Of a DNA stretch of 21,869 nt, positions 968 through 15,526 are shown piece after piece. Source of the DNA: a virus; IMG/VR virus record IMGVR_UViG_3300021371_000115, positions 1 through 21,869 of that record; one strand, 5' to 3'. The number at the start of each line of letters is the position of its first letter. Within the stretch, counting starts at the first letter, position 1. Below the pieces are notes generated by a model. It was not told where the DNA came from and searched no databases. It saw only the letters and a list, made by a program, of their open reading frames with translations. The position numbers were made by a program, and so were the translations under genes.

Positions 968-2893
968 TTATTTAGGGTATGCACCTCTATTAGGCATATT
1001 CTCTGGCGCAATTCCAGCTTGTTTAGAACCTCTTGGGTTTTTCATATAACTTTTAGGAATAGTTCTTGTCTTTTTATAGTTTCCTAAATTCTCTGAAGGC
1101 TCTGTATTGCTTTCTAGCCTATATAAGACCTTTTTCCATTTGTGTCTACAGTAAATCCCTCCTTTGAATTTAAATAAGTCGTAAGACCTACCTTTATGAC
1201 CTAGTTCTCTATTAACACCTTGTCTTGATGCTCTGTCTATGTCCTCTATTGTCCATACAGTACCAGCACTTGCCATATTCATCATATTTCTACAAAAGTC
1301 TCTTTGTGAACTACTTGCTTTTGATGAACCTATAGCGTAAGTGTATCTTATTTTATATAATCCGTTTTTAGAATCTAAATAACTAAAAGAACTTCCTTTT
1401 TTCTTGGAATCTATTTCATCTTTTAAACCTAATAGTCCTTTAACTTTAGATAGTGTGCTTTTCTTCTCTTTTATTAAGTAATTTGCCCAATCTTCGTTGT
1501 CTATGTCGCTATCTTGGTCAATCTCATCAACAAATACATATTCTTCTGACATTTGTTCTCCACTCTCTGCTAAATGACCTAATACGTTTTTAGATTCTTC
1601 ATCTGATAGGCTTGCTTTCTCGTGAGACTTACAAGGCATATAATAAACAACACCATCTTCTTCGTGTTCGTGATATCCTTCGCAACCTTGCTCTAAAGCT
1701 TTAGCTTCTGCTTCTTCTATAGTGTTATAAGCTTCAATTCCATCTATTTTCTTTAAATTTAACTCATAACCAGTTTCTTCTTCTATAATTTCTTTGTTTA
1801 CTATGTCAATATCACTAAAATCAAGAGGTTTAAGAGTCTTAAAGTATAAGTCTAATGCTATATCATTAATTGATAGTATTGCATCAATACACTCTATTAC
1901 TTGGTCTTGAAAGCATTGTATAACTATGTTGTCAAATAGTTGTGTAGCGTTCTTAATTTCTTCTGCATTGTTTCCTAGTCCATCGTTTCCTTCACGAATT
2001 CCTAGAAGCATTGGAGATGTAACCCTATGACCAACGATTAGTTTTCTAAAGCACTCATCAGCTAAATACTGATAATGTTGAGGTGCATCGTTTAAAGGAA
2101 TGTCATCTATTGTAGTTTTAGATTCAGAGTTGTTATTAAAAGCTACTATTACTTTTTCTCCTCTGCTTCCAGTTAGTTTTCCTAATACATCGCTCTTAAT
2201 AGCTTGCATTTTTTCTGGGTCTGGTACTCCGTTATTGAAATTAACGACTTTAGTGCCACTAAAACCATTTATACAGTCATTTATAAGGTAATCTCCTATT
2301 TCATCCTCTAACACAGCGTAAGGCATCGCAGAAGACCAGTCTGGACTACTATAATAGTACTTTCCAGCTTCATATGGCTTTAAAACGTACATTTCAACTC
2401 CATTTGCTTTACCAAACCCAAATGCTGGTATTCTTTCTGGTTTTTCTGTAGGTTTCAAGTTATCCCAATGATTAGAGTAGTACCAACCTTCTATTTCCCC
2501 TTCATCGTTGCATTTTTCTGCTCTTAATGTTTCCATTGGAAAGTGATGTACTTCTTTTACTCTACCATCTTGATAAACTAATTGAAATGCAGCCATTCCT
2601 AATACTTTGTAGTCATTTATGAATTTTCTTAAATCAGACTTCTTAAATAATGACATCATTTGAGCATATTGCTCTGGTCTTTTGTCTGCATCGTGTGCTG
2701 CAAGACCTTTACCATAAATCATATTAGAAATACCTATAGTAATTGCTCTACAAGTCGTTGAGTTATTGTTTACATCAATTATGTAATTGAAATAGTTGTT
2801 ATCTATTCCGTATTGTACCCAATCTTTATTCTTTAACTCTACAACTTCTGGAGCTGTGTATGCTGCAAGTTTTGTTACGAAAAATTCGCTCAT
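968..2893 (-). CDS. Portal protein with extra C-terminal domains
   Basis: A 641-residue protein. Residues about 1-355 look like a phage portal: YGIDNNYFNYIIDVNNNS, then GKGL, then the HRVTSPMLLGI block (289-299) followed by an Asn/Glu-rich stretch with NNAEEIKNATQLF, as in Bacteroidota portal proteins. The portal forms the dodecameric ring through which DNA enters and leaves the capsid. The remaining part is unusual. There is a Cys/His segment (C404, H408, H410, C421, H424), a stretch resembling the scaffold N-terminus (TLSKVKGLLGL, 480-490), and a domain at about 525-592 with RDFCRNMMNMAS, RQGVNRELG and GGIYCRHKWKKVLY, a pattern I associate with minor head/morphogenesis proteins. A portal fused to a head-morphogenesis-type domain is the best reading. 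The ATG at 2893 overlaps the preceding stop as ATGA. Confidence 0.8.
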   Translation of the reverse strand: MSEFFVTKLAAYTAPEVVELKNKDWVQYGIDNNYFNYIIDVNNNSTTCRAITIGISNMIYGKGLAAHDADKRPEQYAQMMSLFKKSDLRKFINDYKVLGMAAFQLVYQDGRVKEVHHFPMETLRAEKCNDEGEIEGWYYSNHWDNLKPTEKPERIPAFGFGKANGVEMYVLKPYEAGKYYYSSPDWSSAMPYAVLEDEIGDYLINDCINGFSGTKVVNFNNGVPDPEKMQAIKSDVLGKLTGSRGEKVIVAFNNNSESKTTIDDIPLNDAPQHYQYLADECFRKLIVGHRVTSPMLLGIREGNDGLGNNAEEIKNATQLFDNIVIQCFQDQVIECIDAILSINDIALDLYFKTLKPLDFSDIDIVNKEIIEEETGYELNLKKIDGIEAYNTIEEAEAKALEQGCEGYHEHEEDGVVYYMPCKSHEKASLSDEESKNVLGHLAESGEQMSEEYVFVDEIDQDSDIDNEDWANYLIKEKKSTLSKVKGLLGLKDEIDSKKKGSSFSYLDSKNGLYKIRYTYAIGSSKASSSQRDFCRNMMNMASAGTVWTIEDIDRASRQGVNRELGHKGRSYDLFKFKGGIYCRHKWKKVLYRLESNTEPSENLGNYKKTRTIPKSYMKNPRGSKQAGIAPENMPNRGAYPK

Positions 2894-3225
2894 ATTACTA
2901 CGTATTCGTTAGTTGTTGCGTGTTCTGTATATACATCTTTATTAATACTATAAGTACTAATGGTTTGGTCTGTACAGAATATATTGTCTTTATAAACTAC
3001 GCTTGTTCCATTTAAAACAGATAGTGTATAAAATGTTCCTTCTTTTAAAGCTGGACTAAACGTTACATTGCCTTGTAAATAGTATTTATTTGTAGCAAAT
3101 GTTAAACCAGAGTATGTTATTGGTGTGTTTGTGTCTTGGTCTGTAATAATAATACCATCAGCAGAATATTCTCTAGGAATAAACTTTAATTGTTGTGCGC
3201 TTGCACTTGTAGTTAGTATTATCAT
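2890..3225 (-). CDS. Virion-associated hypothetical protein, 111 aa
   Basis: The protein is beta-rich, with blocks FIPREYSADGIIITDQ, KYYLQGNVTFSPALKEGTF and VVYKDNIFCTDQ. I recall similar small proteins beside portal genes in flavobacterial and marine phages, with no known function. The ATG at 3225-3223 is chosen. An in-frame TTG at 3258-3256 would add 11 residues and create a signal-peptide-like N-terminus (two Lys, a short hydrophobic run, then SASAQQ), but Sec export of a virion protein would be odd. The gene follows the terminator hairpin at 3277-3300 and its stop overlaps the portal ATG, so it is probably translated together with the portal gene. Confidence 0.65.
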   Translation of the reverse strand: MIILTTSASAQQLKFIPREYSADGIIITDQDTNTPITYSGLTFATNKYYLQGNVTFSPALKEGTFYTLSVLNGTSVVYKDNIFCTDQTISTYSINKDVYTEHATTNEYVVI

Positions 3226-3276
3226 TAAAAGCTTTTTTAAATAACAAAAAAAGGGCAAAAGTGTTTTATATAAAAA

Positions 3277-3300
3277 AAGGGTACTCCGAAGAATACCCTT
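3277..3300 (-). terminator. Intrinsic terminator with cUUCGg tetraloop
   Basis: Read on the minus strand, a stem of about 10 bp (AAGGGTATTC pairing with GAGTACCCTT, one G-U wobble) closes a TTCG loop flanked by C and G, the hyperstable cUUCGg tetraloop. The T-run extends to 3272. It lies between the 176-aa structural gene (ends 3324) and the 111-aa gene. Only about 50 nt separate it from the next ATG, so it probably lowers, rather than ends, transcription of the portal segment. Confidence 0.8.
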
Positions 3301-3323
3301 AATTTAAGAAAAATGTATAAAAA

Positions 3324-3854
3324 TTAAGTTCCTACAACAACAACAGTATTAGTAGTATCTCCAATAATTGCAGAGTCTACAAAAAATGCTGGTGCTTTTT
3401 CAGTTCCAGTAAAAGTTATATTATAGCCATTTAAATCTCCCATAGCTGCTCCAGTAGCTGTATTAACAGCACATTCACATCCATTTTCAATTCCAGCTAA
3501 AAAGTAATTCCCATTGTAATCTTGTACGATTACTTGAGGTCTACCATAACTTAATAATTTTAATTCTTTACGAGTTGCAAGGTCTTGTTTCTTTAAAACT
3601 ATCGTTCCAGTTTGTGTCCAGAAAGATGTTCCATTGTCCCTTGAGTTCTCGTTTGTTTGTTCGAAAGAGTTAGCTCCTTTTAAGTCGTATTTGTAAAAAG
3701 TTAAAGGAGATGCAAAAGCAGTAATTTCATCATCAGTTCCAAATGTAGCAGTTCCTAATAAACCACTAGTGTAATTTGAGATGTAGATTGCTATTATCCC
3801 TCCAACCGAGTCTTTACAAGGCTCTAATCTTCCAGCAGTAATATCACAAGACAT
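3324..3854 (-). CDS. Phage structural protein (possible tail tube or head protein)
   Basis: A 176-residue protein. MSCDITAGRLEPCKDSVGG at the start and MGDLNGYNITFTGTEKAPA near the end match a family I recall beside major capsid genes in Bacteroidota phages. The fold looks beta-rich. The C-terminal G..M.DL.GY.ITFTGTEK pattern resembles tail-tube-type proteins, but its position right after the capsid gene would also fit a head decoration protein. It contains several cysteines (C3, C13 and a CEC in NGCECAV). It is flanked by terminator hairpins on both sides, so its expression is probably set separately. Structural role likely; exact role uncertain. Confidence 0.7.
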   Translation of the reverse strand: MSCDITAGRLEPCKDSVGGIIAIYISNYTSGLLGTATFGTDDEITAFASPLTFYKYDLKGANSFEQTNENSRDNGTSFWTQTGTIVLKKQDLATRKELKLLSYGRPQVIVQDYNGNYFLAGIENGCECAVNTATGAAMGDLNGYNITFTGTEKAPAFFVDSAIIGDTTNTVVVVGT

Positions 3855-3880
3855 ATATTTAAGTTTTTTGAGTTAATAAT

Positions 3881-3904
3881 ATAAAGGGAGGTTTTACCCT
3901 CCCC
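3881..3904 (-). terminator. Intrinsic terminator after the major capsid gene
   Basis: On the minus strand GGGAGG and CCTCCC form a perfect 6-bp GC-rich stem (positions 3898-3903 with 3886-3891) around a 6-nt loop, followed by TTTATAT. The U-tract is modest. It lies 14 nt after the capsid stop codon and about 30 nt before the next ATG, with no room for a separate promoter. A partial terminator that keeps capsid mRNA above downstream levels fits this position. Confidence 0.75.
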
Positions 3905-3917
3905 TTATTTAGTTTAA

Positions 3918-4880
3918 TTATCCAGCGTAGTAAACTACGTCAGCACCTACTCCTATTGCAGCAGCAGCAGTAAATCTCATTACAAGTCTTACGTTTTGAC
4001 TTCCATCAATTGGAGTCATATCAATTACTCTTACTTCGTTGTAATCGTTAAGTAATCCAGTTGCAAAGAAAAGGTTACTAGATTGAGCAGCTATCATTGT
4101 GTCATCTGACATTCCTCTACCTACAAAGATTGGAATACCTCCAAAAGATAAACTTCCGTTGTTATACCATTGTGTTCCTTTGTTATCAGAACCAGCGTTT
4201 GATGTTGCAGCTACAGCAAATCCTCCTAATGCTCTAATGTATAATTTAGCAGCTTTGTTAGATACATATAACTTTAAATCTTCTTTTCCGTAAAGTGAAT
4301 TTGGAATTAAATCCACAACTCTTTGCATTTCATCGATAATGTTAGCAGCAGTTAAAGCAATTGGGTTAGCTACATCTAATACTGTTCCATCAGCAGCAGC
4401 AAGAGTTTCTAATCCATCGTATTCTCCAGCTTGTGCGCCACCTAAATTACCAGTCCAGATATTAGTTTCGTTAGCAGCAGCAACTTTAGATGCTACGTGT
4501 CCAACTAAATAATCAGCGAATGATGTAGGTAATCCGTTTGGATTGAATGCAGAATATCCCATTTGGATAGATTCCCAAGTGTTGATAAAGTCAGACTTAC
4601 ATAATTGTAAGTTTACTTGGAATTCTTCTGGTTGGATAACTACTTCAGTTAAATTCACATTTGAAGAAGCAGTAAAATCACAAGTTCCATCTGCGATTAA
4701 ACTACCAGTTTCAATTCTTTGAATAACTGATTTAAATTTTACGTTTGGCATTACTTCAACACCACCATCTTCGATTGTACTTGCACTTAAAAGTGCTGCC
4801 GAGATGTACTTTCCAGCAAATTCTCCAGCATAAGTGCTAGTGATGTTTACTGTTGTTGCTAGGTCTATTTTATTTGACAT
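3918..4880 (-). CDS. Major capsid protein
   Basis: A 320-residue protein that forms the icosahedral shell. The blocks TSTYAGEFAGKYISAALLSA near the N-terminus, CDFTASSNVNLTEVVIQPEE with FQVNLQLCKSDF, and GYSAF followed by SFADYLVGHVASKVAAANE resemble the HK97-fold capsid family of flavobacterial phages. The C-terminal half carries NLFFATGLLNDYNEVRVID and VRLVMRFTAAAAIGVGADVV, typical of the late beta strands of that family. It lies 18 nt after the scaffold gene and is followed directly by a terminator hairpin, the usual scaffold-capsid pair. No long N-terminal scaffolding extension is present, consistent with a separate scaffold protein. The ATG is at 4880-4878. Confidence 0.88.
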   Translation of the reverse strand: MSNKIDLATTVNITSTYAGEFAGKYISAALLSASTIEDGGVEVMPNVKFKSVIQRIETGSLIADGTCDFTASSNVNLTEVVIQPEEFQVNLQLCKSDFINTWESIQMGYSAFNPNGLPTSFADYLVGHVASKVAAANETNIWTGNLGGAQAGEYDGLETLAAADGTVLDVANPIALTAANIIDEMQRVVDLIPNSLYGKEDLKLYVSNKAAKLYIRALGGFAVAATSNAGSDNKGTQWYNNGSLSFGGIPIFVGRGMSDDTMIAAQSSNLFFATGLLNDYNEVRVIDMTPIDGSQNVRLVMRFTAAAAIGVGADVVYYAG

Positions 4881-4898
4881 AATTTTGGTTTTTGATTT

Positions 4899-5459
4899 TT
4901 AGTTTTTAAATAATTTAGCAAATACTCTATCTTGAGTACTCATTGGTTTGTTTTGAGCATAAAGGTTCATTTCTAATTCTCCTTTAGACTCTGGATTGTG
5001 TTTAATTGGTTTAGCAATTTCTTGTGTAGATAATTCTACTTCTTCAGAACTTAAGTCTTCTTTGTCTGCTAATTTGGATTTTAATTCTTCCATAGCATCT
5101 TCAAGATATTTCATTCTTTCTTCCATCTTACTCATATCCACTACTTCGTCTTCTTCAGCAGCTTCAACTTCTTCCACAACTGGTGCTTCTACAACTTCTT
5201 CTACTTCTTCTTCGACTGCTTCTTTAACTTCAGAGATAATACCATCTTCTTCAACGATAACTGTAAAGCCATCATCTAAAAGGTATTCTCCCTTTGGTAC
5301 TGCAATTCTTTCATCTTCATCTGTTATGATAAAGATTTCTTTACCAGCTTCAAAAGAATCAGCTTCAAAGCGAGTTCCGTTTTCCAACTTTCTCTCCTCT
5401 AACTGAACTTCTAAACCTAGTAATGTCTTAACTTTGTTAAGGGTTTCTTTAGAGTTCAT
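4899..5459 (-). CDS. Capsid scaffold-like protein
   Basis: A 186-residue, strongly acidic protein directly upstream of the capsid gene. In order: an N-terminal segment KETLNKVKTLLGL (4-16); a small beta domain (about 28-78, with GTRFEADSFEAG and VPKGEYLLDDG); a Glu/Val-rich stretch (70-108) that looks disordered; a coiled coil (110-135); and a basic C-terminal helix ending DRVFAKLFKN, the sort of tail that binds capsid subunits in scaffolds. From memory, similar proteins precede the capsid gene in Bacteroidota phages. The XkdF-like protease upstream would be expected to remove it during head maturation. The role is inferred from composition and position. Confidence 0.7.
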   Translation of the reverse strand: MNSKETLNKVKTLLGLEVQLEERKLENGTRFEADSFEAGKEIFIITDEDERIAVPKGEYLLDDGFTVIVEEDGIISEVKEAVEEEVEEVVEAPVVEEVEAAEEDEVVDMSKMEERMKYLEDAMEELKSKLADKEDLSSEEVELSTQEIAKPIKHNPESKGELEMNLYAQNKPMSTQDRVFAKLFKN

Positions 5460-5527
5460 ATATATTAATTTTAAGTATTTACTTTTTTATTAAACAACTT
5501 TAGTTATTTGTTGTTGTAAATTCGTTA

Positions 5528-5977
5528 TTATGCTTTCTTTTGTATAATAAACCATTCAACTCCATCTGACCATACTTGTATGCCTTCAAATGCTTTGTTT
5601 ATTACATAAGCAGCAGTACCACCATCTAATTCATCTCCACCAATAGGAGTTAATTCTACTCTTGTTGCAGTTGCAAATCCTCCATTAGATAAAAATCTCA
5701 TTACTCTATTTTCATTACTTGCAGCACTAGGTAAATTTAAAGTCATTGTACCATTAGCACCAGACCAAGTAAGTCTAATTAGTTCGCTTGTTGCATAAGT
5801 AGAATCTGAAAGGTTAACAGTTTGTCCACTTGATACTGTAACAGATGTAGGTACAATATAATTTAGTATGTGTTGTACTGTTGATTGTTTAGTTGTGTTG
5901 CTTTGTACTACTACAATAGCTTCATCGCCTTGTAAAGCTGTTGATACTGGTAGTTGTGATATTTTTAAATTTGCCAT
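5528..5977 (-). CDS. Head-fibre/decoration-type protein
   Basis: A 149-residue protein. The N-terminus MANLKISQLPVSTALQGDE then VVVQSNTTKQSTVQHIL is a motif seen at the start of many Bacteroidota phage fibre or decoration proteins (KIS.L...L.G.E...VVQ...T...T). The C-terminal half is beta-rich and ends with INKAFEGIQVWSDGVEWFII, a small beta domain. It lies between the protease/Cys-rich pair and the scaffold-capsid pair, which suggests a head-associated fibre rather than a tail fibre. The start overlaps the previous stop as TAATG. The family resemblance is from memory; the exact site on the virion is not known. Confidence 0.6.
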   Translation of the reverse strand: MANLKISQLPVSTALQGDEAIVVVQSNTTKQSTVQHILNYIVPTSVTVSSGQTVNLSDSTYATSELIRLTWSGANGTMTLNLPSAASNENRVMRFLSNGGFATATRVELTPIGGDELDGGTAAYVINKAFEGIQVWSDGVEWFIIQKKA

Positions 5978-6201
5978 TATGTTATTATATTAGAATTATT
6001 TTCTTGTAAAATTAAACTTTCGTTTTCTTGTGCTAAAAATTCTACTATCTCTGAACCTCCAGATAAATTTCCAATTCCTTGATTTTGTAAATCTCCGTTA
6101 CAACATTTAGAGTTGTAAGTATTGTCTTTACATAAACATCCTCTTTTACCTCCTTGTGGAGAAGTTCTACTTTTTGTTGGTCTCTGATTCCTTGAGTACA
6201 T
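5977..6201 (-). CDS. Small Cys-rich head-module protein, 74 aa
   Basis: A 74-residue protein. The first half is basic (Arg/Lys/Ser/Thr-rich, with PQGGKRG), followed by a cysteine cluster GCLCKDNTYNSKCCNGD and then LQNQGIG; the C-terminal half is acidic and flexible. Four cysteines within 13 residues could bind a metal or form disulfides. I recall similar short proteins with the C.C...Y...CC.G.LQ.QGIG pattern next to the protease and capsid genes in flavobacterial phages, with no assigned function. The gene overlaps the 3' end of the protease gene by 35 nt and shares TAATG with the next gene, so it is tightly coupled to head expression. Confidence 0.6.
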   Translation of the reverse strand: MYSRNQRPTKSRTSPQGGKRGCLCKDNTYNSKCCNGDLQNQGIGNLSGGSEIVEFLAQENESLILQENNSNIIT

Positions 6202-6784
6202 CTATTATTTCGTTTAGTAGTTTATCGTCTTCGCTTAATTGGTCTTGTTGTTTATCTTGTGGTCTGTTAAGTTTGTCAGCAAAGTAGCCTTCTATTGAAA
6301 AACCTTTTACTTTACCTTCTTTTACATAGTTGTTCCAAATATCATCGTTATCAACTTTCATTGCAACCATCCAAGTACCTATTGGCATATCTAAACCATA
6401 CTTACGAGATTTATCGTGTACATCATCTTCTATAAGCCAAGATTCAACTATAGTCATTCCAGATAGTTTTTCTTCTGTGTGTTCTAATGTTGCTTGTCCT
6501 TGATTACCAGCTTTTAAAAACATTTGTGATGCTTTAGCTACTGTATCTTTAGAAAAGTATATATAAAACTCGTGGTCTCCAGATTTTCTATATATAGGCT
6601 TCTCTGGAATAAGAGCTGCACCCATTAATAAGCGTTTTTCTTTACTTACTTCTGCAAGTCTTATTTGCTCTTGGTTTTTAAGTGCTATAAAATCTTCTTC
6701 TATTGCTGGAGATTCAACTACTGATATAGCTTCTATTCCAGATAGTTCTTCGTTCTCGTCTATTACTAATTCTATTATTTCCAT
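6167..6784 (-). CDS. Prohead protease, XkdF-like (peptidase S78_2 type)
   Basis: A 205-residue protein. The order SGIEAISVVESPAIEEDF at the N-terminus, MGAALIPEKPIYRK, FYIYFSKDTVAKASQMFLK, then LEHTEEKLSGMTIVESWLIED and GTWMVAMKVDNDDIW with KVKGFSIEGYF matches the XkdF family of phage proteins. In that family the H in LEHT and the S in GFSIEG are likely catalytic residues. Such proteases cleave scaffold and capsid N-termini during head maturation. The C-terminal 35 residues are polar and probably disordered. It opens the head module, 41 nt after the tape-measure gene. The family call is firm; the catalytic residue assignment is by analogy. Confidence 0.8.
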   Translation of the reverse strand: MEIIELVIDENEELSGIEAISVVESPAIEEDFIALKNQEQIRLAEVSKEKRLLMGAALIPEKPIYRKSGDHEFYIYFSKDTVAKASQMFLKAGNQGQATLEHTEEKLSGMTIVESWLIEDDVHDKSRKYGLDMPIGTWMVAMKVDNDDIWNNYVKEGKVKGFSIEGYFADKLNRPQDKQQDQLSEDDKLLNEIIDVLKESETNKK

Positions 6785-6825
6785 AATTCTTTTTTTATAA
6801 ACAATAAATTTTGGTTTTTGTTATA

Positions 6826-8658
6826 TTATCCTAGTGATGCTCCTTGTATTATATTGTTTTGTAAGCTTTGTGCAGATGTAACATCTTGACTTACAACAAA
6901 TGCTTGTACTGGTGCTTGTTGTCCTAATGCTTGCGCTAATTGGTTTGTACCACTTGTACCTAATATGTCAAACGATGGTGTTTGTGCTGGTGTAGATGGA
7001 GCTGCTGCTCCAGAAGGTGTTGTTACTGTACTACTAACTGCTCCTACATCTGCACTAGGTGTAATTGATTTTATAGATTTTACTGCACCAAAACCAGTTG
7101 CAAGTACTCCAGCAATACTTGATATCTTTTGTATTGTACCAAATGGCTCTGGAATAGTTGTGTCATTAGATAAAACTTCTGTAACACCTAAATAAGTATT
7201 TGTTAATGCTTGAGCTATACCAAAGGCTTTTGCAGCTTTAGAATTCTGTTTCATTATTCCAGCAAGAGTTCCAAATGTACTTGCTACTATTTGTAGTTTT
7301 TGCTTTTGTAATTCTTTTTCTATATTAGTTTTTAATTGAGCATCTTTTTTCTCTGCATCAAGAACTACCTTTTGCCAATATAATATAGTTGCTGCCTTTT
7401 GTTCTTCAGTTGCATTTAATAAGTCTAATTCAGCTAAAGCTCTTTCTTGTGCTAAAACAGCTTTTTCTTCAAACGTTATTGCTTCCTCATCTTTTTTTAA
7501 TTGCTCTAATTCTTTTTGTTTAGCTTCAATAGATGCTTGACGTTCATCTTCTATTCTATCTCTTTCTAATTCATCTGCAACCTTTTGGTCTTCTATAATT
7601 TTAAGTGCTGCTGCTTCTTCAGCCTTTAAAGCAATTGTTTGACTTGTAACTTCTTTTTGTTTTGTAAGTCTTGCAGTTTCTAATTGTATTACTTGTGCTT
7701 TTAATCTTGCTTCTTCTTCTAAATCTTCTTTAGTAGAACCAGCCAATGCGTTTTCAGCTTGTTTAGCTTCAAGCCTTATTTTAGCTGCTTGTATTTCTTT
7801 GTTAGTAATATCTTCTTCAAGTTTACCAGCTTCTTCTAAAAAACCTATTCTTTGTTCTACTGTAAATTGTTCTCTATCTACTGCTTGTTCTAATAACTCT
7901 GCTCTTTGTCTATCTGCTTCTGCTCTATCTACTATTAATTGTCTTTCTAACTTATCTGCCTTTGCTCTTTGGTCTGCAATATCAGCAGCTATTTTACCTT
8001 CCTTAATTATTTCTTCCCCAAGCTCTTTAACTGCTTCAGTTGTTTTACCTATTGTATCTTCAATGCCAGTTAAGGTATCTATATAAGAACTACCAGCAGA
8101 TTTAGCATCATCCATTGCACCAACAAAGTCTCCACTAAATACCTTTTTAATTGCACTACCTAAAAAGCCAATTGTGTCTATTGCAGCTTCAAATCTGTTT
8201 GTAATATTTTCAACTATAAAGTCTTTAAACTTTTCAATAGCATCTAAAGGATTTGTAAAAGCATCTATAATTGCATCTCCTAAACTAGCAAGTATGTCTA
8301 CCAAATTACCAGTAACAGAACTTATAACAAGCATTATTTTATTAAACTTGTTTTGCCCTTCCTCTGTGTTTGTAAACGCAGCTCCTAATGCACTAACAGC
8401 TAAAACTAATGCGCCAATACCAGTAGCAATTATTGCCACTCTCATAGACTTAAAACCAGTTATAACATTTTTTAGACCTTGCTTTAAACCTTTGAATTTA
8501 GTTATTAATCCTCCAGATGCTTGGTCTAAACCACCAAGTGAATTATCTAAATCTTGAGTGTCCTTTGTAGTTTCTTTTATAGAATCATCTAACTTATCTA
8601 CGCTTTTAACTGCTTTAGAAGTGTTAGCTTCAAAATTTAAGATATACTTTTCTGCCAT
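6826..8658 (-). CDS. Tail tape measure protein
   Basis: A 610-residue protein. A short N-terminal segment is followed by a hydrophobic Gly/Ala-rich stretch (about 74-95, VAIIATGIGALVLAVSALG) and further amphipathic segments (VISSVTGNLVDILASLG, FTNPLDAIEKFKDF). A long Glu/Lys/Ala-rich coiled coil spans roughly 195-450, and a low-complexity Pro/Ala/Thr/Gln tail ends the protein. This is the layout of tape-measure proteins, which set tail length and are ejected with the DNA. At about 0.15 nm per residue it would suggest a tail near 90 nm. Its start lies inside the 3' end of a 50-aa gene (22-nt overlap). Unusually, it follows the baseplate-type genes and precedes the head module. Confidence 0.8.
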   Translation of the reverse strand: MAEKYILNFEANTSKAVKSVDKLDDSIKETTKDTQDLDNSLGGLDQASGGLITKFKGLKQGLKNVITGFKSMRVAIIATGIGALVLAVSALGAAFTNTEEGQNKFNKIMLVISSVTGNLVDILASLGDAIIDAFTNPLDAIEKFKDFIVENITNRFEAAIDTIGFLGSAIKKVFSGDFVGAMDDAKSAGSSYIDTLTGIEDTIGKTTEAVKELGEEIIKEGKIAADIADQRAKADKLERQLIVDRAEADRQRAELLEQAVDREQFTVEQRIGFLEEAGKLEEDITNKEIQAAKIRLEAKQAENALAGSTKEDLEEEARLKAQVIQLETARLTKQKEVTSQTIALKAEEAAALKIIEDQKVADELERDRIEDERQASIEAKQKELEQLKKDEEAITFEEKAVLAQERALAELDLLNATEEQKAATILYWQKVVLDAEKKDAQLKTNIEKELQKQKLQIVASTFGTLAGIMKQNSKAAKAFGIAQALTNTYLGVTEVLSNDTTIPEPFGTIQKISSIAGVLATGFGAVKSIKSITPSADVGAVSSTVTTPSGAAAPSTPAQTPSFDILGTSGTNQLAQALGQQAPVQAFVVSQDVTSAQSLQNNIIQGASLG

Positions 8659-8789
8659 TTTATTTGTCTTTTAATTTGTTTGAATCCTTCTTTAAATGTT
8701 TCTGGCATTTTGTTTTTGCCTTTTGCTATTTCTATAGTTTCACTAACTCCGTAAAACTCATCTATGTTTAATAATTTTAATACTATCAT
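8637..8789 (-). CDS. Small protein before the tape measure, 50 aa
   Basis: This gene fills what would otherwise be an empty 130-nt gap. Starting at the ATG at 8789-8787 it reads MIVLKLLNIDEFYGVSETIE, then a Lys-rich C-terminal half including MPETFKEGFKQIKRQIK. The start shares its A with the preceding TAA (TAATG), and the end overlaps the tape-measure start by 22 nt. That is the spacing expected of a translated gene in this operon. The C-terminus is basic and helical. No family is recognised; by position it could be a tail-assembly accessory protein. Confidence 0.55.
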   Translation of the reverse strand: MIVLKLLNIDEFYGVSETIEIAKGKNKMPETFKEGFKQIKRQIKWQKSIS

Positions 8790-10858
8790 TATGTTAATAC
8801 GCTTGGTGTGTAAGCACTTTGTTTAGTTATTAATTCTAATTCGCTTTTGTTAGTTAGTAAATTAGTTCTTATGCTATTTATATAATACTCTTGTCCGTTT
8901 ACAATAAACACATCATTTAGTTCATAATTTAAAACTATTGATGAAGGTAATTGCGCAGTAAACTTTACAACCCTTGCTTGTTCTTCAAAAAGCTTAACTA
9001 TGTATTGAGAATAAAATCTATTAAACAAACTATTCTCATTTACATTACCAGTATATTCGTTATACTCTATTCCAAAGTTTAAAGTATGATTTCTATCTGG
9101 ACTAACATTAGAAGGCGCATTGTATTCTTCTATTACAAGAGAAGTAACTGGGTAATCTGCTACATCAATTAAATCATTAAAAAACATATACGGACTACCT
9201 AATGTAGTTTTACTTTCTGCATCTACCCACCAACCATAAACAACCCCAGTCAAATCATCGTTCTCATCAATTATGTTTATTAATTGGCTACGTTGTCCAT
9301 CTACTTGTATATCATAGCTTTGACCATCATATTTTTCTGGTGCTGAATAGTTAAGATTTCCGAATTGTTGGCTAAACTGATTTAAGTATCTTAAAGATGT
9401 TTGCGTAACAGATGGAGAATAATTAAAGTTTATTCTTGAATATGGAACTGGTCTGTCTATTGTGTTTTTATCTACAACTATGTATTTAGAAATATCGTGA
9501 GTGTTTCCAGTAGACATAAAGTCATCAAATGTTTCTACATATATTTTACTTGAACCTCTTTTAGTATAAGCAGTTAGATTAAACATCTTAAAAAGTGTAG
9601 TCATAAAGTCAAGCACTTTCATATTAGGTATATAGTCTTGTATAAATATATTTTGCTCTAAATTAAAAGCATTATAAGAATAATTGCCAGAATCTACTGG
9701 CGTGCCATCTTTTAGTGTTCGTGTTATAAGCATTGTTTCTGCATCAAATACTCCTACAGTTGGAGTATTAAATCTAAACTCTATATCATAAGTTCTAGAT
9801 GACAAAGTACCACTATCTAAATCTCTTAACGTTACATTATAATTACTAGCTGGTGTTATTCTTGTTTGATAATCTAACAATTCGTTTGTAAGTTTATCTA
9901 TTGAAATAATTTCTAGCTCAACTCCAGCATTGCTATCTAAAACTAATCTTATAGAATAATTATACTCATCGCTTACTACTAAATTACCTCCACTTAAAAA
10001 ATCAGTTCCAGAAACAAATGTAAAATCTGCAAAAGTTAATTTTCTTGACCTTTGTTGTAAATCAATACCAAATAAAGGAACAGTAGTTTCTGGGTTTGTT
10101 ATAGGTGTTTTCTCTCTATGCAACCATAAATACAATTCATCAAATACATCACTATCAAAAAAACTTGTTATACCAGTTTCATCTGCCATATTAAACTCTA
10201 TATTGTATTGAGTCTGTATTGCTTCTATAATACGTTTGCATTTTATTGCTGGTTTTAATTCTCTTTGTAATAGATTCCAATTTATATTATGTAGGTTAGG
10301 CGTAGTTATTGTGTTTGTAGAGTCATAACTATAATAGTTTTGTAAAGTGATTAAAGGTAAAGTAATGTTTCTGTTAGCAGTAGAAGTAGCTTTTACACCA
10401 GTACTTTGTAAACCATCTTTAAAAGCATTTAAAACATCACTATTATTATATTTTATGTCATAAGCATTTAAAGGATTTAAAGCACTTAATGTTTCATCTC
10501 CAAATATATCTTTAAGACTTGAAGTATTACCAAAGAACACTACTTTATAAGCGTGTGCTTTGTTGTCTTTCATAGATACAGAATCTAATCTAATCTTACC
10601 TACTTTAAAATCTGCTCCATCTAGTTTTATAATAGCATCTACTCTAAACCTTGCATCATAACCATTTATAATATCATTGTTATAATAGTGTTTAAATATC
10701 TTGTTGTTAGTAGAGGATGCTGGTAAATTAAACTGTTGACTAAAAGGAGTAAACACTAAAGCAATATCACGAATGTTTTGTTGAGTGTCAGTAAGAGTAA
10801 TTGCTTCATCTTTAAATAAATCAACTCTAACATTATCTATATATAATTCTAAATTCAT
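8789..10858 (-). CDS. Large tail/baseplate-type protein, 689 aa
   Basis: A 689-residue protein. The N-terminus (MNLELYIDNVRVDLF, then FTPFSQQFNLPASSTNNKIF) and the mid part with NMKVLDFMTTLFKMFNLTAY are features I associate with Bacteroidota phage tail proteins placed between the distal tail and the tape measure. The VLDFMTTLFKMFN block and the C-terminal stretch VIVNGQEYYINSIRTNLLTN resemble tail-hub proteins (gp27/gp44-like role). It is beta-rich throughout with no membrane span. The ATG directly follows the upstream TAA with no gap, so translation is coupled. A tail-tip hub is likely, but I cannot separate hub from other baseplate roles by eye. Confidence 0.65.
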   Translation of the reverse strand: MNLELYIDNVRVDLFKDEAITLTDTQQNIRDIALVFTPFSQQFNLPASSTNNKIFKHYYNNDIINGYDARFRVDAIIKLDGADFKVGKIRLDSVSMKDNKAHAYKVVFFGNTSSLKDIFGDETLSALNPLNAYDIKYNNSDVLNAFKDGLQSTGVKATSTANRNITLPLITLQNYYSYDSTNTITTPNLHNINWNLLQRELKPAIKCKRIIEAIQTQYNIEFNMADETGITSFFDSDVFDELYLWLHREKTPITNPETTVPLFGIDLQQRSRKLTFADFTFVSGTDFLSGGNLVVSDEYNYSIRLVLDSNAGVELEIISIDKLTNELLDYQTRITPASNYNVTLRDLDSGTLSSRTYDIEFRFNTPTVGVFDAETMLITRTLKDGTPVDSGNYSYNAFNLEQNIFIQDYIPNMKVLDFMTTLFKMFNLTAYTKRGSSKIYVETFDDFMSTGNTHDISKYIVVDKNTIDRPVPYSRINFNYSPSVTQTSLRYLNQFSQQFGNLNYSAPEKYDGQSYDIQVDGQRSQLINIIDENDDLTGVVYGWWVDAESKTTLGSPYMFFNDLIDVADYPVTSLVIEEYNAPSNVSPDRNHTLNFGIEYNEYTGNVNENSLFNRFYSQYIVKLFEEQARVVKFTAQLPSSIVLNYELNDVFIVNGQEYYINSIRTNLLTNKSELELITKQSAYTPSVLT

Positions 10859-12001
10859 TTATCTTATGTTGTTTATAGTATCAAATGCAAAGCTTACATC
10901 TATTGTGTAGTTTATTAAACTATCAGTAAGGCTTGTTTTATAGTTTATATTGTTATTCTCTATATTTACAGCTAGTGTTTTGTCTTTGTATTCTATCCAT
11001 ACTTTATCACTTAAAAATAGTTGTCTAAATATTTCGTTATTGCTTTCTGGATAATAACCACTATTTAATGTAAGTCTTTGATTTGCGTTTTTAGATAGTA
11101 GTCTAACTTGCGCGTTATATGTTTCGTATGTTCCGTTGTTTAGTATGTTAGATTTGTATTTGTCAGTTTCAGTAGTCATTGCAAGTTTAGAATTCTTAAA
11201 CATCCAAATATCTTGATATGCTCCAAACTTATTTATAAATGTTAGTTTATAAGGCGTATATTTACATTCATCTATATTATCTACTTGAATTACAGTCAAT
11301 CCTTCAACTCCACTAACATAAACCTCATCAACTGGAAATAACTCAAAGTCATCTTCAAATTGGTCAATACAAGCATTATCCTCAAATGTACCTCCATCTA
11401 ACTCTACTCTTTCTTCAAAGCTATCTGCTCCATTAACGCCATTACTTACATAAACAATCTGGTCTTGTATTTTAAGACCAACGCTAGGAAGCCAAGAATA
11501 TACTTGTTGTCCTTTATATAAGAAAGCAACAGAGTTTGTGTTTTCATTATCTACTGGTATTCTTATAGGAGCATCGTGTAACTTTAATATTGTTGTGTTT
11601 GATTGTAAGTAGCCTTGTAATAGTTGAGGGTTTGCACCTTCTTCAAAATATCCATAACCATAAAAAGCTCTTAACCCTAATGTATCAACTGGTGTTTGCG
11701 CTCCAGTATTTAATGTTTCTGTAACTCTATAATCTACATACATTGTAGTATAATCTTCTGTAGCATCTAAATCATTTGGATATACTCCATTAAATGCTGC
11801 TGGTATGTAGTCTTTTATTAACTCTGCTATTTCAAAGTTTACTTTTTCGTTTATAGCTGTTGAGGTTAATGTATATTGCGGACTGCCTAGCCAAGTAGTT
11901 TCTGCTGCTCCTACATATATTCTTATTTCAAGCTTTGCGCTTACCAAGTTAGTAGTTGATAGGTTTACGAAGTAAGGGCTTCTTACGTTAATTTTACTCA
12001 T
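10859..12001 (-). CDS. Tail protein (distal-tail/baseplate type), 380 aa
   Basis: A 380-residue beta-rich protein beginning MSKINVRSPYFVNLSTTNLV and ending TIDVSFAFDTINNIR. Proteins starting with a VRSPYF/Y motif and a following KLEIRIYVG strand are common in the tail modules of flavobacterial phages, usually called minor tail or structural proteins. The mid region has a run of acidic residues (DQFEDDFELFPVDE). It overlaps the HK97-gp10-like gene by 8 nt and abuts the 689-aa tail gene, so the two large tail proteins are probably made together. Structural role fairly sure; position in the tail inferred. Confidence 0.6.
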   Translation of the reverse strand: MSKINVRSPYFVNLSTTNLVSAKLEIRIYVGAAETTWLGSPQYTLTSTAINEKVNFEIAELIKDYIPAAFNGVYPNDLDATEDYTTMYVDYRVTETLNTGAQTPVDTLGLRAFYGYGYFEEGANPQLLQGYLQSNTTILKLHDAPIRIPVDNENTNSVAFLYKGQQVYSWLPSVGLKIQDQIVYVSNGVNGADSFEERVELDGGTFEDNACIDQFEDDFELFPVDEVYVSGVEGLTVIQVDNIDECKYTPYKLTFINKFGAYQDIWMFKNSKLAMTTETDKYKSNILNNGTYETYNAQVRLLSKNANQRLTLNSGYYPESNNEIFRQLFLSDKVWIEYKDKTLAVNIENNNINYKTSLTDSLINYTIDVSFAFDTINNIR

Positions 12002-12527
12002 TGTTGTTGTTTTTTAATATGTCTATTATGTCTTTTGCAAATGCTTTACTTAATAATTCTGGATACCTATCAAAGGCTGCTAAAAATGGTTTAGTAAAAA
12101 ACATACTAGGTTTTATACCTTGTGCAAATATGCTTCTTTGTAATATGAATCCTATTGTTCTATAATTACCTTTTTTAAATTTCCCTTCTTTATCTCTTAA
12201 TCTTATGTTTCTTTTTTTAGCCCAATCAGCTATAGGTTGCATAGGTGGTCTTTTATTTCTAAAACTATAAGGACTGTTACCTCCTTTTTGTTTACCACCT
12301 TTAACTAAACTAGGATTAGCACCTTTAACACCTTTATCTAAAAATGTTCCGTACTCATCCATTATAAAAGCTAAATCAAAGTTGCCATTCTTTTCGTCTA
12401 ATTTGTAATGAATACTATTATATAAGTCTTTACTTACATTGTGTTTTTGTTTTGTAAGATTAGACCTTGATTGTTGTACTACATACTTACCAAAAGATTG
12501 TAACTCTGTTTGCAAGTTCTTTAACAT
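11994..12527 (-). CDS. HK97 gp10-like tail completion protein
   Basis: A 177-residue protein. The N-terminal helix with FGKYVVQQSRSNLT, the following VSKDLYNSIHYKL, and MDEYGTFLDKGVKG match the HK97 gp10 pattern (a helix, then L..SI...., then a beta strand and Y..F.e.G), a neck/tail completion family. The middle carries a Lys/Arg/Gly-rich stretch (KGGKQKGG, then FRNKRPPMQPIADWAKKR), and FILQRSIFAQGIKPSMFF is typical of flavobacterial versions. In siphoviruses this family sits between the head-tail adaptor and the tail terminator. Here it overlaps the preceding gene by 7 nt and the next by 8 nt. Confidence 0.72.
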   Translation of the reverse strand: MLKNLQTELQSFGKYVVQQSRSNLTKQKHNVSKDLYNSIHYKLDEKNGNFDLAFIMDEYGTFLDKGVKGANPSLVKGGKQKGGNSPYSFRNKRPPMQPIADWAKKRNIRLRDKEGKFKKGNYRTIGFILQRSIFAQGIKPSMFFTKPFLAAFDRYPELLSKAFAKDIIDILKNNNNE

Positions 12528-12985
12528 ATAGTCATATCATTAGGTATTAGTACATCAAATGTAACAGTCCATCCAGCTAACTTGTTTTCAAACCTATCTA
12601 CAAAAGGTTCTAATGTAGGGTCTCCGTTTAATTGGTATTTGTCTACATAGAGTTGTCCTCTTAATAATAACTCTAGTAATCTATTAGCTACTGCAAGTTG
12701 TGTATTAAATACATCTTGCTCATTATTGTTACCTCTAAACTCTTGTGGTATTCCCTCTGCAAAGTCTTTACTATCATCTACTATATCCATACATAATAGA
12801 GATATATTAAAGTTCCATACGTTACTTTGCATTGTTGCACTATTTACCATAAAGTGTGATAATGGAAATATAGTCTGTTTGTTTAAGTCTACATCGTATA
12901 TGTCTCCATAGGTAACTGTGTTTACAAAGTCATCTAATTGTAGTGTTTGTCTTATCTTTTCGGATAGATTATAAAATCCTTGCAT
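12521..12985 (-). CDS. Tail terminator/completion-like protein
   Basis: A 154-residue protein that I recall as a conserved neighbour of the gp10-like gene in Bacteroidota phages. Characteristic blocks are VNTVTYGDIYDVDLNKQTIF, PLSHFMVNSATMQ, and the C-terminal LAGWTVTFDVLIPNDMTIC. By position (next to gp10-like and chaperone genes) and length, the tail terminator role is the best guess; it would cap the tail tube and join it to the head. The start ATG at 12985-12983 lies one base after the stop codon of the -1 frame of the chaperone gene, which supports that frame being real. Confidence 0.65.
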   Translation of the reverse strand: MQGFYNLSEKIRQTLQLDDFVNTVTYGDIYDVDLNKQTIFPLSHFMVNSATMQSNVWNFNISLLCMDIVDDSKDFAEGIPQEFRGNNNEQDVFNTQLAVANRLLELLLRGQLYVDKYQLNGDPTLEPFVDRFENKLAGWTVTFDVLIPNDMTIC

Positions 12986-12986
12986 A

Positions 12987-13248
12987 TTATTGTGATTTAC
13001 GTTTTATCATTCTTGTTTCTAATTCTGCTTTTTCTTTTTCAAATGCCAAGTACATTAAACATTGGTGTAACGGAAGTCTTGCAACTTCTTTAAATCTTGT
13101 AATGTCTCCTTGAGCAAGTGTATATAACTCTGAATAGCTACCCCATTTTCTTGAGAAATTTGACCTTGCATCTGTTCCTTCGCTACTTCCTTCTGTAAAT
13201 AGTTCGGTATATAGTTCAGCAATTCGTTGGTTAAATTGTAAAAAAAAA
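12987..13248 (-). CDS. Frameshifted C-terminal extension of the tail assembly chaperone
   Basis: This is the -1 frame relative to the chaperone gene. It opens upstream of a T9 run (13240-13248) and runs without stops to the TAA at 12987-12989. It has no ATG until codon 22 from its end, so it must be reached by a frameshift. The translation is protein-like: FNQRIAELYTELFTEGSSEG, then FSRKWGSYSELYTLAQGDI, then RFKEVARLPLHQCLMYLAFE and a Lys/Glu-rich end. From memory, an ...LAQGD.TKF......LPLH.C...LAFEKEK pattern is a recurrent C-terminal piece beside chaperone genes in flavobacterial phages. The fused product would be about 241 residues, against 218 for the unshifted one. The layout matches lambda G and GT. 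Confidence 0.75.
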
Positions 13249-13711
13249 CCATAGCACCTAATACAACACTTAATGGCATCTGTTTCATTACCTCGCTGTA
13301 CTTGTGGCTTCCTTCATATTCTTCTATTAAATACTTGTGTCCTTGCTTTTGTTTAAGTGGTCTAAATAACACAGCCATTGCTTTATGCATATTACCCCAT
13401 TCATTTATATAGCTTGTAACGTCTTTATTTTCTCCATAGGTAATTTCATCAAGGTTTGGTATAAAACCATAAGCAACACCATTTAAATTAAACGTAGGGA
13501 TAAACTTGTGTTCTTGTTCAAATAGTTTATTAATGTGATTGATTAAGTAATCTACATCTTTGTCTTTAATCTTACCTAACTCTTTTGTGTTTATGTTGAG
13601 GATGCATTTAAGTAAATCATCATTACTTGGATTCTCTATAAGTAAGAAATCTTGATAGTCTTTTAACTTGACTTCCTTTAGTGTACTTGGTATAGAAACT
13701 TCTAATTGCAT
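13055..13711 (-). CDS. Tail assembly chaperone (unshifted product)
   Basis: A 218-residue protein starting at the ATG at 13711-13709. A longer TTG start at 13732 is unlikely because it would sit at the foot of a terminator hairpin. The N-terminus MQLEVSIPSTLKEVKLKDYQ and the middle WGNMHKAMAVLFRPLKQK with YLIEEYEGSHKYSEVMKQMP fit a Bacteroidota tail-chaperone family. In siphoviruses such proteins coat the tape measure until the tail tube polymerises, and are made as a short and a frameshifted long form. The T9 run falls after residue 157 in this frame (GTT TTT TTT TAC). The 0-frame C-terminus after it, ENGVAIQSYIHLLKETLQDL, also looks like a conserved helix, so both ends seem to be used. Confidence 0.75.
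   Translation of the reverse strand: MQLEVSIPSTLKEVKLKDYQDFLLIENPSNDDLLKCILNINTKELGKIKDKDVDYLINHINKLFEQEHKFIPTFNLNGVAYGFIPNLDEITYGENKDVTSYINEWGNMHKAMAVLFRPLKQKQGHKYLIEEYEGSHKYSEVMKQMPLSVVLGAMVFFYNLTNELLNYIPNYLQKEVAKEQMQGQISQENGVAIQSYIHLLKETLQDLKKLQDFRYTNV
13240..13248 (-). promoter_or_regulatory. Probable -1 ribosomal frameshift site (T9)
   Basis: Nine consecutive T's on the minus strand read GTT TTT TTT TAC in the chaperone frame. Two adjacent Phe codons preceded by T form a T TTT TTT slippery heptamer, on which both tRNAs can re-pair after a one-base slip back. The downstream -1 frame is open for about 84 further codons. I did not find a clear stimulatory pseudoknot or SD-like element by eye. 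Slippage during transcription on T9 is an equally possible mechanism. Confidence 0.7.
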
Positions 13712-13730
13712 AAAGTGTTTTTTATAAAAC

Positions 13731-13761
13731 AAAAAAAGGATTACTTTGTATAAAGCAACCC
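13731..13761 (-). terminator. Intrinsic terminator before the tail module
   Basis: On the minus strand GGGTTGCTTT pairs with AAAGTAATCC (10 bp, two G-U wobbles) around a 4-nt loop, followed by seven T's. The wobble pairs work only in minus-strand RNA, which confirms orientation. It lies 26 nt after the stop of the 71-aa gene and about 20 nt before the chaperone ATG, so tail genes must be transcribed through it. It probably acts as an attenuator. Confidence 0.82.
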
Positions 13762-13787
13762 TCTTTTATCTAACTATCAACTAAAAA

Positions 13788-14003
13788 TTATCTTAATGTC
13801 TTATATAGGTATAAGTATAACTCTTGTATCTTATCTCCTAACTTTTTGTCTTGTCTGTATGTTTCTTTTCCGATTTGTATTCTTCCTTCTCTATGTATCT
13901 CTAATTTAACGTCTGGTCTTCTTGTTTTAGCTAATGGTTTTACTATTACTTTGATATCATTCTTTAAACACCAACTCATAGCATCTCTTACATTTCTTGT
14001 CAT
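13788..14003 (-). CDS. Small conserved phage hypothetical, 71 aa
   Basis: A 71-residue basic protein: VRDAMSWCLKNDIKVIVKPL, then RRPDVKLEIHREGRIQIG and a C-terminal helix DKIQELYLYLYKTLR. I recall similar short proteins with an AM.WC..NDIK.....R.D.K.E......G pattern in Bacteroidota phages, with no known function. The ATG at 14003-14001 overlaps the preceding stop as ATGA. It is followed by a strong terminator. No metal site, membrane span or HTH is evident. Confidence 0.6.
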   Translation of the reverse strand: MTRNVRDAMSWCLKNDIKVIVKPLAKTRRPDVKLEIHREGRIQIGKETYRQDKKLGDKIQELYLYLYKTLR

Positions 14004-14179
14004 TTAAACAAGTTAATCATTATTGCTGGAATAAACATAGTAGCTAAAATACAAATTATTTGATATATTCTTGTATATAGTTTTCTATAGTAAATAGTAT
14101 CTGTGTATTCTTTTAGTGTATATACTTTTGTTGTGTTGTTTTTATATACTGTTACCTTGCCTTGTTTTACCTCTATCAT
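14000..14179 (-). CDS. Small membrane protein, 59 aa
   Basis: This gene was found by reading the 360-nt gap between the terminase and the 71-aa gene. From the ATG at 14179-14177 it reads MIEVKQGKVTVYKNNTTKVY, a basic middle with RKLYTRIYQ, and a hydrophobic C-terminal span IICILATMFIPAIMINLF. It looks like a C-tail-anchored inner membrane protein with a cytosolic N-terminus. The stop overlaps the next ATG as ATGA, and the start lies 2 nt after the stop of another tiny membrane protein, so the two form a pair. A lysis (holin-like) or superinfection-related role is possible, but nothing in the sequence decides it. Confidence 0.6.
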   Translation of the reverse strand: MIEVKQGKVTVYKNNTTKVYTLKEYTDTIYYRKLYTRIYQIICILATMFIPAIMINLFK

Positions 14180-14181
14180 AT

Positions 14182-14292
14182 CTAAAATATTAAGTTATGT
14201 ATAATAGATTCAAGCGATAATAATACTACACTTGCTATTAATAATACAAATGAGAATAATGATAATGTTAAGTAGTGTTTTAGTTTTTTCAT
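14182..14292 (-). CDS. Tiny single-span membrane protein, 36 aa
   Basis: From the ATG at 14292-14290 the peptide starts MKKLKHYLTLSLFSFVLL, continues as a hydrophobic run IASVVLLSLES and ends IIHNLIF. It is one membrane span with a positive N-terminus. It sits 70 nt after the terminase stop with a possible promoter in between, and 2 nt before the next tiny membrane protein. Small phage proteins of this shape include holins, antiholins and exclusion proteins, but none can be assigned here. Confidence 0.5.
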   Translation of the reverse strand: MKKLKHYLTLSLFSFVLLIASVVLLSLESIIHNLIF

Positions 14293-14314
14293 TGTTTTGT
14301 TGTTTAATTATACT

Positions 14315-14345
14315 GCAATATATAACTAATTATTTAATTAACAAA
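14315..14345 (-). promoter_or_regulatory. Weak candidate promoter before the small membrane genes
   Basis: In the 70-nt gap after the large terminase gene, TTTG (14342-14345) is followed after 19 nt by TATATTGC (14315-14322). This is an imperfect match to the Bacteroidota TTTG-N19-21-TAnnTTTG consensus. It is placed suitably (about 20 nt before the ATG at 14292). The region is very AT-rich, so the match may be chance. Confidence 0.3.
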
Positions 14346-14362
14346 ATTATTGATAACTTTTA

Positions 14363-15526
14363 TTAGTAAATGTAATATTGACCCTTATTAGGATTCTCTA
14401 ATTGTGAAGTGATAGCATACCTCATCGCATCTATACAATGGTTAAAAGCATCTATTGGTTTGTTAAGTGTTTCGCCTTCTTTGTTCTTTAACCAAATGTA
14501 GTTCTGAAGTTCTTTGATTAAGTTATGACTTCTATTAGTTATGTAGATTTCATTTTGATTGATGAGGTTGATACCATACACTATTGAGTCTTTACCTTTT
14601 TTTACTGGCATTATTAAATGACCATAGCTTGATAACTCTGCAATACTTTTAGGTTCTGCTGAATCTGCATATATGATTTCTTTTGCTTGGTGTGTTTTAA
14701 GTAAGTTACTTATCTGACTATTTAGTAATCCTTTTTGATAGATGACCTCATCAAAGATATATGAGTTGTTGTATTTGTATAAAGAAATTAAAGCACTTGG
14801 ATGATTGGAGTAGCCAAAATCAAGTCCGTAACAAAGTAGCCTTGCTTCGTCTGGTAAGTCAATAGGCTTCCAGTCTTTTATACAAGCACCTTCTAAACTT
14901 CCTATCTCTCCTAGTCCATATACATTCCACCAGTTATTCCAATAGGTAGATGTCTTTGCTTTGTCTTTAGCTTTCTCTATGTCTTTTATTATTGTGTCTG
15001 GTAATGCTTCGTTGTCTAAATACGTTAGCTTTATAAAGTCAGCATCATCTTTACCTTGTAGTTCTGTATGCGCCCAGAATGATGAGGTTGGATTAAAGTC
15101 AATCCATATCTCTCCAGATGTTCTTATTGCTAATTGGTTGTATGCTTCATAAGGTATGTTGTTAGCTTCGTTTACATATAAGGTGTGTCTTCTTGCTCCT
15201 CTTAACTTGTCTGCTGATTCAACACTAAAGAACTCAATGTAACTTCCGTTTGCAAACTTATACTTCAGCATTGACTTATTATATTGCATATCATTATAAC
15301 GATTAGTCATCATCATAATCTTTAAGAAGTCTTTTAAAGCACCTCTACGCAAATGTGGTATGCTTTCACTAACTACGCTTATTTCTACGTTAGGAGTCTT
15401 TATAGCCCTATCTATGAGGATAGGTAGTATGCCAAACGTTTTACCAGCAGATGTTCCACCTTGAACTATCTTTTTACGTTTCTTTAGTTTAAGAAGTTTT
15501 TTAATTGCAGTTGTTACTACAAACAT
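14363..15526 (-). CDS. terL: Terminase large subunit
   Basis: A 387-residue motor that packages DNA into the prohead. The ATPase domain has Walker A GGTSAGKT (23-30), a Walker B-like TLYVNEANN (115-123) with the acidic residue at 120, and the coupling-type IWIDFNPTSSFW (140-151). The nuclease domain has YGLDFGYSNHPSAL (Asp at 236), IIYADSAEPKSIAEL (Asp at 288) and a C-terminal DAFNHCIDAMRYA (Asp at 359 and 365), the usual RNase H-like carboxylate set. The length is close to that of the PBSX/SPP1-type family. The start overlaps the small terminase stop as TAATG, so the two are co-translated. Confidence 0.93.
   Translation of the reverse strand: MFVVTTAIKKLLKLKKRKKIVQGGTSAGKTFGILPILIDRAIKTPNVEISVVSESIPHLRRGALKDFLKIMMMTNRYNDMQYNKSMLKYKFANGSYIEFFSVESADKLRGARRHTLYVNEANNIPYEAYNQLAIRTSGEIWIDFNPTSSFWAHTELQGKDDADFIKLTYLDNEALPDTIIKDIEKAKDKAKTSTYWNNWWNVYGLGEIGSLEGACIKDWKPIDLPDEARLLCYGLDFGYSNHPSALISLYKYNNSYIFDEVIYQKGLLNSQISNLLKTHQAKEIIYADSAEPKSIAELSSYGHLIMPVKKGKDSIVYGINLINQNEIYITNRSHNLIKELQNYIWLKNKEGETLNKPIDAFNHCIDAMRYAITSQLENPNKGQYYIY

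Follow-up and report, generated by a model that had tools for sequence, protein, structure and literature searches.

The window, the whole stretch of DNA that was analysed, is the record of an uncultured virus and has 21,869 bases, 30.9% of them G+C. Its large recognisable genes are on the minus strand, and those recognised encode terminase, portal, an XkdF-like head protease and tape measure. The gene considered here (13055..13711, minus strand), which we call the frame-switch gene, encodes 218 amino acids followed by a stop. Upstream of it, and separated from it by one small gene, lies the gene for the terminase large subunit (terL; 14363..15526, minus strand), which marks the phage context. 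The next gene downstream (12521..12985, minus strand) encodes a protein of 154 amino acids that belongs to phrog_30964, a family of unknown function, and is a conserved neighbour. The tape measure gene (6826..8658, minus strand) was recognised by matches to phrog_3336 and phrog_1538 (E about 1e-8).

The frame-switch gene contains a run of nine T's (T9; 13240..13248, minus strand) in the context GTT TTT TTT TAC. The run starts at the second position of codon 155, ends at the first position of codon 158, and holds an in-phase U_UUU_UUU at 13247-13241. Read in the -1 frame from 13247, the sequence begins FFLQFNQR and ends KRKSQ before a stop at 12989-12987, leaving a single base (12986) between that stop and the ATG of the next gene at 12985. 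This -1 extension (12987..13241, minus strand) comprises 84 codons after the slip and carries a helical domain with the pattern FxxKWGxY...LPLHxCLxYLAFEKEK; its first ATG comes only 22 codons before its end. Codons 1-157 are common to the two predicted products, of which the longer would have 157 plus 84, or 241, residues. The short product ends in a 0-frame tail of about 61 codons that lies over the -1 extension, making 13058..13240 (minus strand) a stretch that is read in two frames. A preliminary description of this DNA had placed the T9 157 codons into the gene, with a -1 frame of about 84 codons ending one base before the next ATG, and all of these coordinates hold.

Taken alone, the run is unremarkable. 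It is the sole run of nine in the window, and dinucleotide shuffles of the sequence yield about 6 such runs. What lifts the site far above chance is homology, together with codon statistics and frozen wobble positions.

Conservation of the site and of both frames

Homologues were sought in IMG/VR, which was queried with both the 0-frame protein and the -1 peptide and with profiles built from each of them, and also in GTDB genomes and cultured phages, giving a total of 439 distinct genes with both domains. The GTDB genome collections yielded five loci and a few more prophage or metagenome-assembled genome (MAG) loci in profile searches, and no homologue when searched with a single sequence. The second domain lies in the -1 frame in every one of the 439 genes, and a one-frame fusion of the two domains was found in none of them, IMG/VR relatives included. 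At the junction there is a run of nine or ten T's in 426 genes, and never of 7, 8 or 11. The other 13 genes form one clade with the canonical heptamer A_AAU_UUU, which sits one codon before the usual position (consensus [GA]TA AAT TTT AT[AT] TAC); in a quick tree this clade has a single origin (SH-aLRT 99) and is nested within the T9/T10 genes. In the same clade (L447, L484-L496) the 0-frame tail is longer, at about 81 codons. Part of the searches used peptide patterns spanning the junction, a bias that favours the run; retrieval by three N-domain patterns that exclude the junction had the same outcome, with 170 T9/T10 and 12 A_AAU_UUU genes out of 182. The preliminary description had held that its reading should fall if homologues lacked the run or the frame, and these counts do not refute it.

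Among cultured phages, Nonlabens phages P12024L and P12024S carry the same two domains (genes _40/_41 and _38/_39) directly after terL, with the junction CTT TTT TTT TAT and about 25% identity in the N-domain. They differ from the window in that the domains are deposited as two separate hypothetical proteins and the 0-frame tail has only 27 codons. One homologue (L228, about 1955-1964) reads TAT AAT in place of TAC AAT, creating a TAA in the -1 frame right after the T9; it is the sole homologue with a -1 stop directly after the run, and this may be either a sequencing error or a true loss. Flavobacterium phage 6H (L572; fold match R9VW65) is a remote homologue with no clean -1 switch and was set aside. 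Its frames appear to be broken twice around 10352-10380, with the C-terminal domain in a further frame.

The pattern of substitution points to constraint on the site and on both frames. Wobble diversity is 0.00 at the site codons V, F and F, against a mean of 0.57 upstream. In the N-domain, which is read in the 0 frame only, differences at codon positions 1, 2 and 3 are 0.24, 0.16 and 0.47, the third position being the most variable, and the same is true in the -1 phase past the 0-frame stop (0.21, 0.16 and 0.37). In the overlap the values are 0.18, 0.30 and 0.28, so that no position is free and both frames are held. These rates show that both frames are constrained across about 60 codons, which also bears out the earlier remark that the 0-frame C-terminus looked conserved. 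When codons were randomly recoded with the -1 protein fixed, the 0 frame stayed open as far as is observed in about 3.6% of recodings (0.036) per representative; with the 0-frame tail fixed, the -1 frame was open in about 0.35% (0.0035) per representative. Directly after the run, Tyr is encoded by TAC when A or G follows and by TAT when C follows (55:1 versus 3:31; Fisher 1.4e-19, uncorrected for relatedness), a bias that is nearly absent from the other Tyr codons of the gene (the N-domain control is weak, p 0.03). This choice avoids TAA and TAG in the -1 frame, which places the beginning of -1 reading at the run.

Could the -1 domain instead be translated on its own, through re-initiation at a start codon within the overlap, as the GenBank annotation of P12024L_41 implies? 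The 0-frame stop does overlap an ATG (TAATG) in Nonlabens and in the window. However, just 26 of 132 representatives have TAATG or TGATG where the 0 frame ends, 32 have no ATG at all in the -1 frame, and in most of the others the first comes after codon 57 (of about 86). The -1 frame is moreover conserved from the run onward, far ahead of any start codon. Since -1 ATGs are few, late or absent, separate initiation cannot make the -1 domain, and on this survey of start codons it was rejected as very improbable. Still less credible is that the run reflects an error of sequencing or assembly, or that the gene has decayed through a frameshift mutation in the homopolymer. Homopolymers are indeed error-prone, but the same run and frame recur in 426 distinct genes, in two complete cultured phage genomes and in prophage and MAG loci, and there is selection on both frames; error was rejected on this conservation.

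Comparison of the homologues thus shows, as far as sequence can, that selection acts on where the switch occurs, on the -1 frame and on each of the two alternative C-termini. Because the -1 frame and the site are conserved, the wobble positions are frozen, both frames are constrained and the Tyr codon avoids -1 stops, the T9 is almost certainly a programmed -1 switch that would give products of 218 and 241 residues. The two products predicted in the preliminary description are thereby supported by homologue conservation and codon statistics.

Ribosomal or polymerase slippage as possible routes

Standard reading of the gene would yield the 218-residue product, and a fraction of reading would switch to -1 inside the T9 to give the 241-residue product from the same start. 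On the ribosomal route, two tRNA-Phe on U_UUU_UUU (GUU UUU UUU UAC) would step back one base, reading would continue UUU UUU UUA CAA, and the slip would take place without a downstream RNA structure. Alternatively, RNA polymerase could slip on the T9 and add one U, so that a transcript with 10 U's would place the downstream codons in the -1 frame and ordinary translation would follow; the A_AAU_UUU clade would then have changed later to ribosomal slippage. We favour ribosomal slippage as the main route with modest confidence. Slippage of the polymerase is a serious, though less likely, competitor, and that both operate together seems improbable. The preliminary description had this phage doing the same as lambda G/GT; the -1 switch itself is upheld, and the ribosomal route is less secure, since a T9 is also a classical site of RNA-polymerase slippage.

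An in-phase X_XXY_YYZ heptamer is found throughout, U_UUU_UUU in all T9/T10 genes and A_AAU_UUU in the one clade. For the T genes this is a weak criterion, because any run of nine contains one. A_AAU_UUU is a two-tRNA heptamer without a long homopolymer, and ribosomal slippage is evidently available to these genes. The nested clade keeps the shift with AAATTTT, which is not a known polymerase-slippage run, and this counts against the polymerase, as does the fact that all published tail-chaperone switches that we found are described as ribosomal. On the other hand, U_UUU_UUU is reported to cause little shifting in E. coli (PMC5009743). An RNA stimulator, a non-obligatory feature of -1 ribosomal frameshifting, was not found, which suits polymerase slippage: downstream folding resembles that found elsewhere in the gene (mean z -0.24; windows over 45 representatives), Rfam gave no stimulator match, and no upstream synonymous constraint of the kind expected of an SD-like element was seen.

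The length of the run also argues for the polymerase. A run of at least nine A/T is present at the switch, with the 13-gene A_AAU_UUU clade as the exception, and both polymerase slippage in bacteria and selection against such runs begin at a length of nine (PMC1088944; PMC5009743). In the 426 genes the run is never shorter than nine, though seven would serve two tRNAs. In a few genes the run has slid against the codons and its length is still exactly nine: AAT TTT TTT TTG (L530), GGT TTT TTT TTG (L570) and TTT TTT TTT CTG (L396, L592, L617 and L626). Against this, the outer two T's are mostly explained by the encoded amino acids (V/L/I/F in the 0 frame and Leu in the -1 frame). In 306 neighbouring genes from the 132 representative loci, longer A/T runs are avoided more strongly (A>=9, observed/expected 0.15; T>=9, 0 observed against 3.6 expected), and avoidance of T7 is independent of phase (0.31 in phase, 0.34 out of phase). 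Avoidance of runs regardless of phase would be expected under polymerase slippage, although it fits replication slippage too. Runs of about nine T or A at which an extra base gives an alternative frame are known from Shigella mxiE and Thermus dnaX (PMC1088944; PMC5009743). Those are cellular genes of other function, and in them slippage has been shown in the laboratory.

It is conceivable, then, though we would not press it, that in a large family of Bacteroidota phage assembly genes polymerase slippage at a T9/T10 kept for its length and not its phase sets the ratio of the products, and that one clade switched to ribosomal slippage at A_AAU_UUU. If true, this would be a natural case of a phage gene exchanging transcriptional for translational recoding at a single spot. 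The strict run length and the clade with the changed site offer a ready comparison of the two kinds of slippage within one gene.

Predicted structure and function

The N-domain and the -1 domain of the 241-residue product were modelled separately. The AlphaFold model of the N-domain (58 homologues) has pLDDT mostly above 90 for residues 1-160. A long helix (147-181) contains the run, and past about residue 178 the model of the 0-frame tail is of low confidence. The model of the -1 domain is helical. A fold search of the PDB with the models gave no match; elsewhere the matches were to many uncharacterised phage proteins, those of Nonlabens included, and weakly to BFVD entry A0A8S5V8Z8, named 'Tail assembly chaperone protein' (E 0.076, probability 0.84). 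With Foldseek, several single-chain viral proteins of 226-268 amino acids match both the N-domain and the -1 domain models (in BFVD these include A0A516L611, A0A516L5A8, A0A6J5N0W0 and A0A6J7WJY4), which suggests that in other phages the two domains may form one protein as a one-frame fusion.

We consider that the frame-switch gene probably encodes a tail assembly chaperone, as the preliminary description had named it. Beyond the one weak fold match above, Pfam, PHROG functions and the PDB gave no functional match for the gene, and sequence-profile searches of the PDB and Pfam found no named chaperone. The assignment draws on architecture, by analogy with lambda G/GT and SPP1 17.5/17.5*, and on the tail-gene neighbourhood, which together make it likely. 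A short and a long product with a shared N-terminus, as in known tail chaperones, would on the comparative evidence be made here by the -1 switch. Position directly before the tape measure gene is usual for such genes, not obligatory, and here four genes lie between the two. Among loci of sufficient length, the gene is in most cases syntenic with terL (85/124) and with the two genes that come after it (77/118 and 85/104).

The resemblance to the known systems is partial. The slip site of lambda is G_GGA_AAG, near the end of G. Lambda differs from the window in the short 0-frame tail after its slip and in that the gene adjoins the tape measure gene. It is alike in that a -1 shift gives a short and a long product from one start; G and GT are absent from virions, and their ratio matters (PMC5009743). 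In SPP1 17.5/17.5* the -1 switch likewise takes place at a U-rich heptamer (UUUUUUC) and a long 0-frame tail follows it, gp17.5 having 173 amino acids of which 112 are shared, leaving 61 residues (PMC6316719). The SPP1 gene has no T9, its -1 extension has 185 residues and it lies directly before the tape measure gene; general sequence searches found no similarity to it. By analogy with these systems, the shared N-domain could bind the tape measure and the -1 domain the tail tube protein, with a set proportion between the short and the long product guiding tail assembly. If the gene is a tail chaperone, the tape measure protein of the window is presumably its client.

The two C-termini might instead belong to a protein with some other part in structure or morphogenesis, such as a head-tail or baseplate assembly factor, an alternative that concerns function and leaves the frame switch as it is. 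Such a role would fit the absence of functional matches and a position near terL and four genes from the tape measure gene. It is rather unlikely in view of the two-product -1 architecture with a helical extension, as in lambda and SPP1, the tail genes around, and the one weak fold match to a protein named as a tail assembly chaperone.

Two-product frame-switch genes are already known from lambda, SPP1, P2 and others, and their occurrence in Bacteroidota phages is apparently unreported, as the open-access papers searched hold no published case in this group. The gene spans a broad, mostly uncultured group of these phages, in which it has been deposited as unrelated hypothetical proteins, two cultured phages included. 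What sets it apart is how strictly the length of the run is kept, that a stretch of 60 codons is read in two frames, and that a single clade has altered the site.

The order of genes at 968-15526 of the window is terL, the frame-switch gene, tail genes, tape measure, head protease, scaffold-like, capsid-like and portal; the tail genes precede the head genes, reversing the usual order. The portal protein (968-2893, 641 amino acids) has a long C-terminal extension past the portal profile and a DUF3721 match at residues 389-424.
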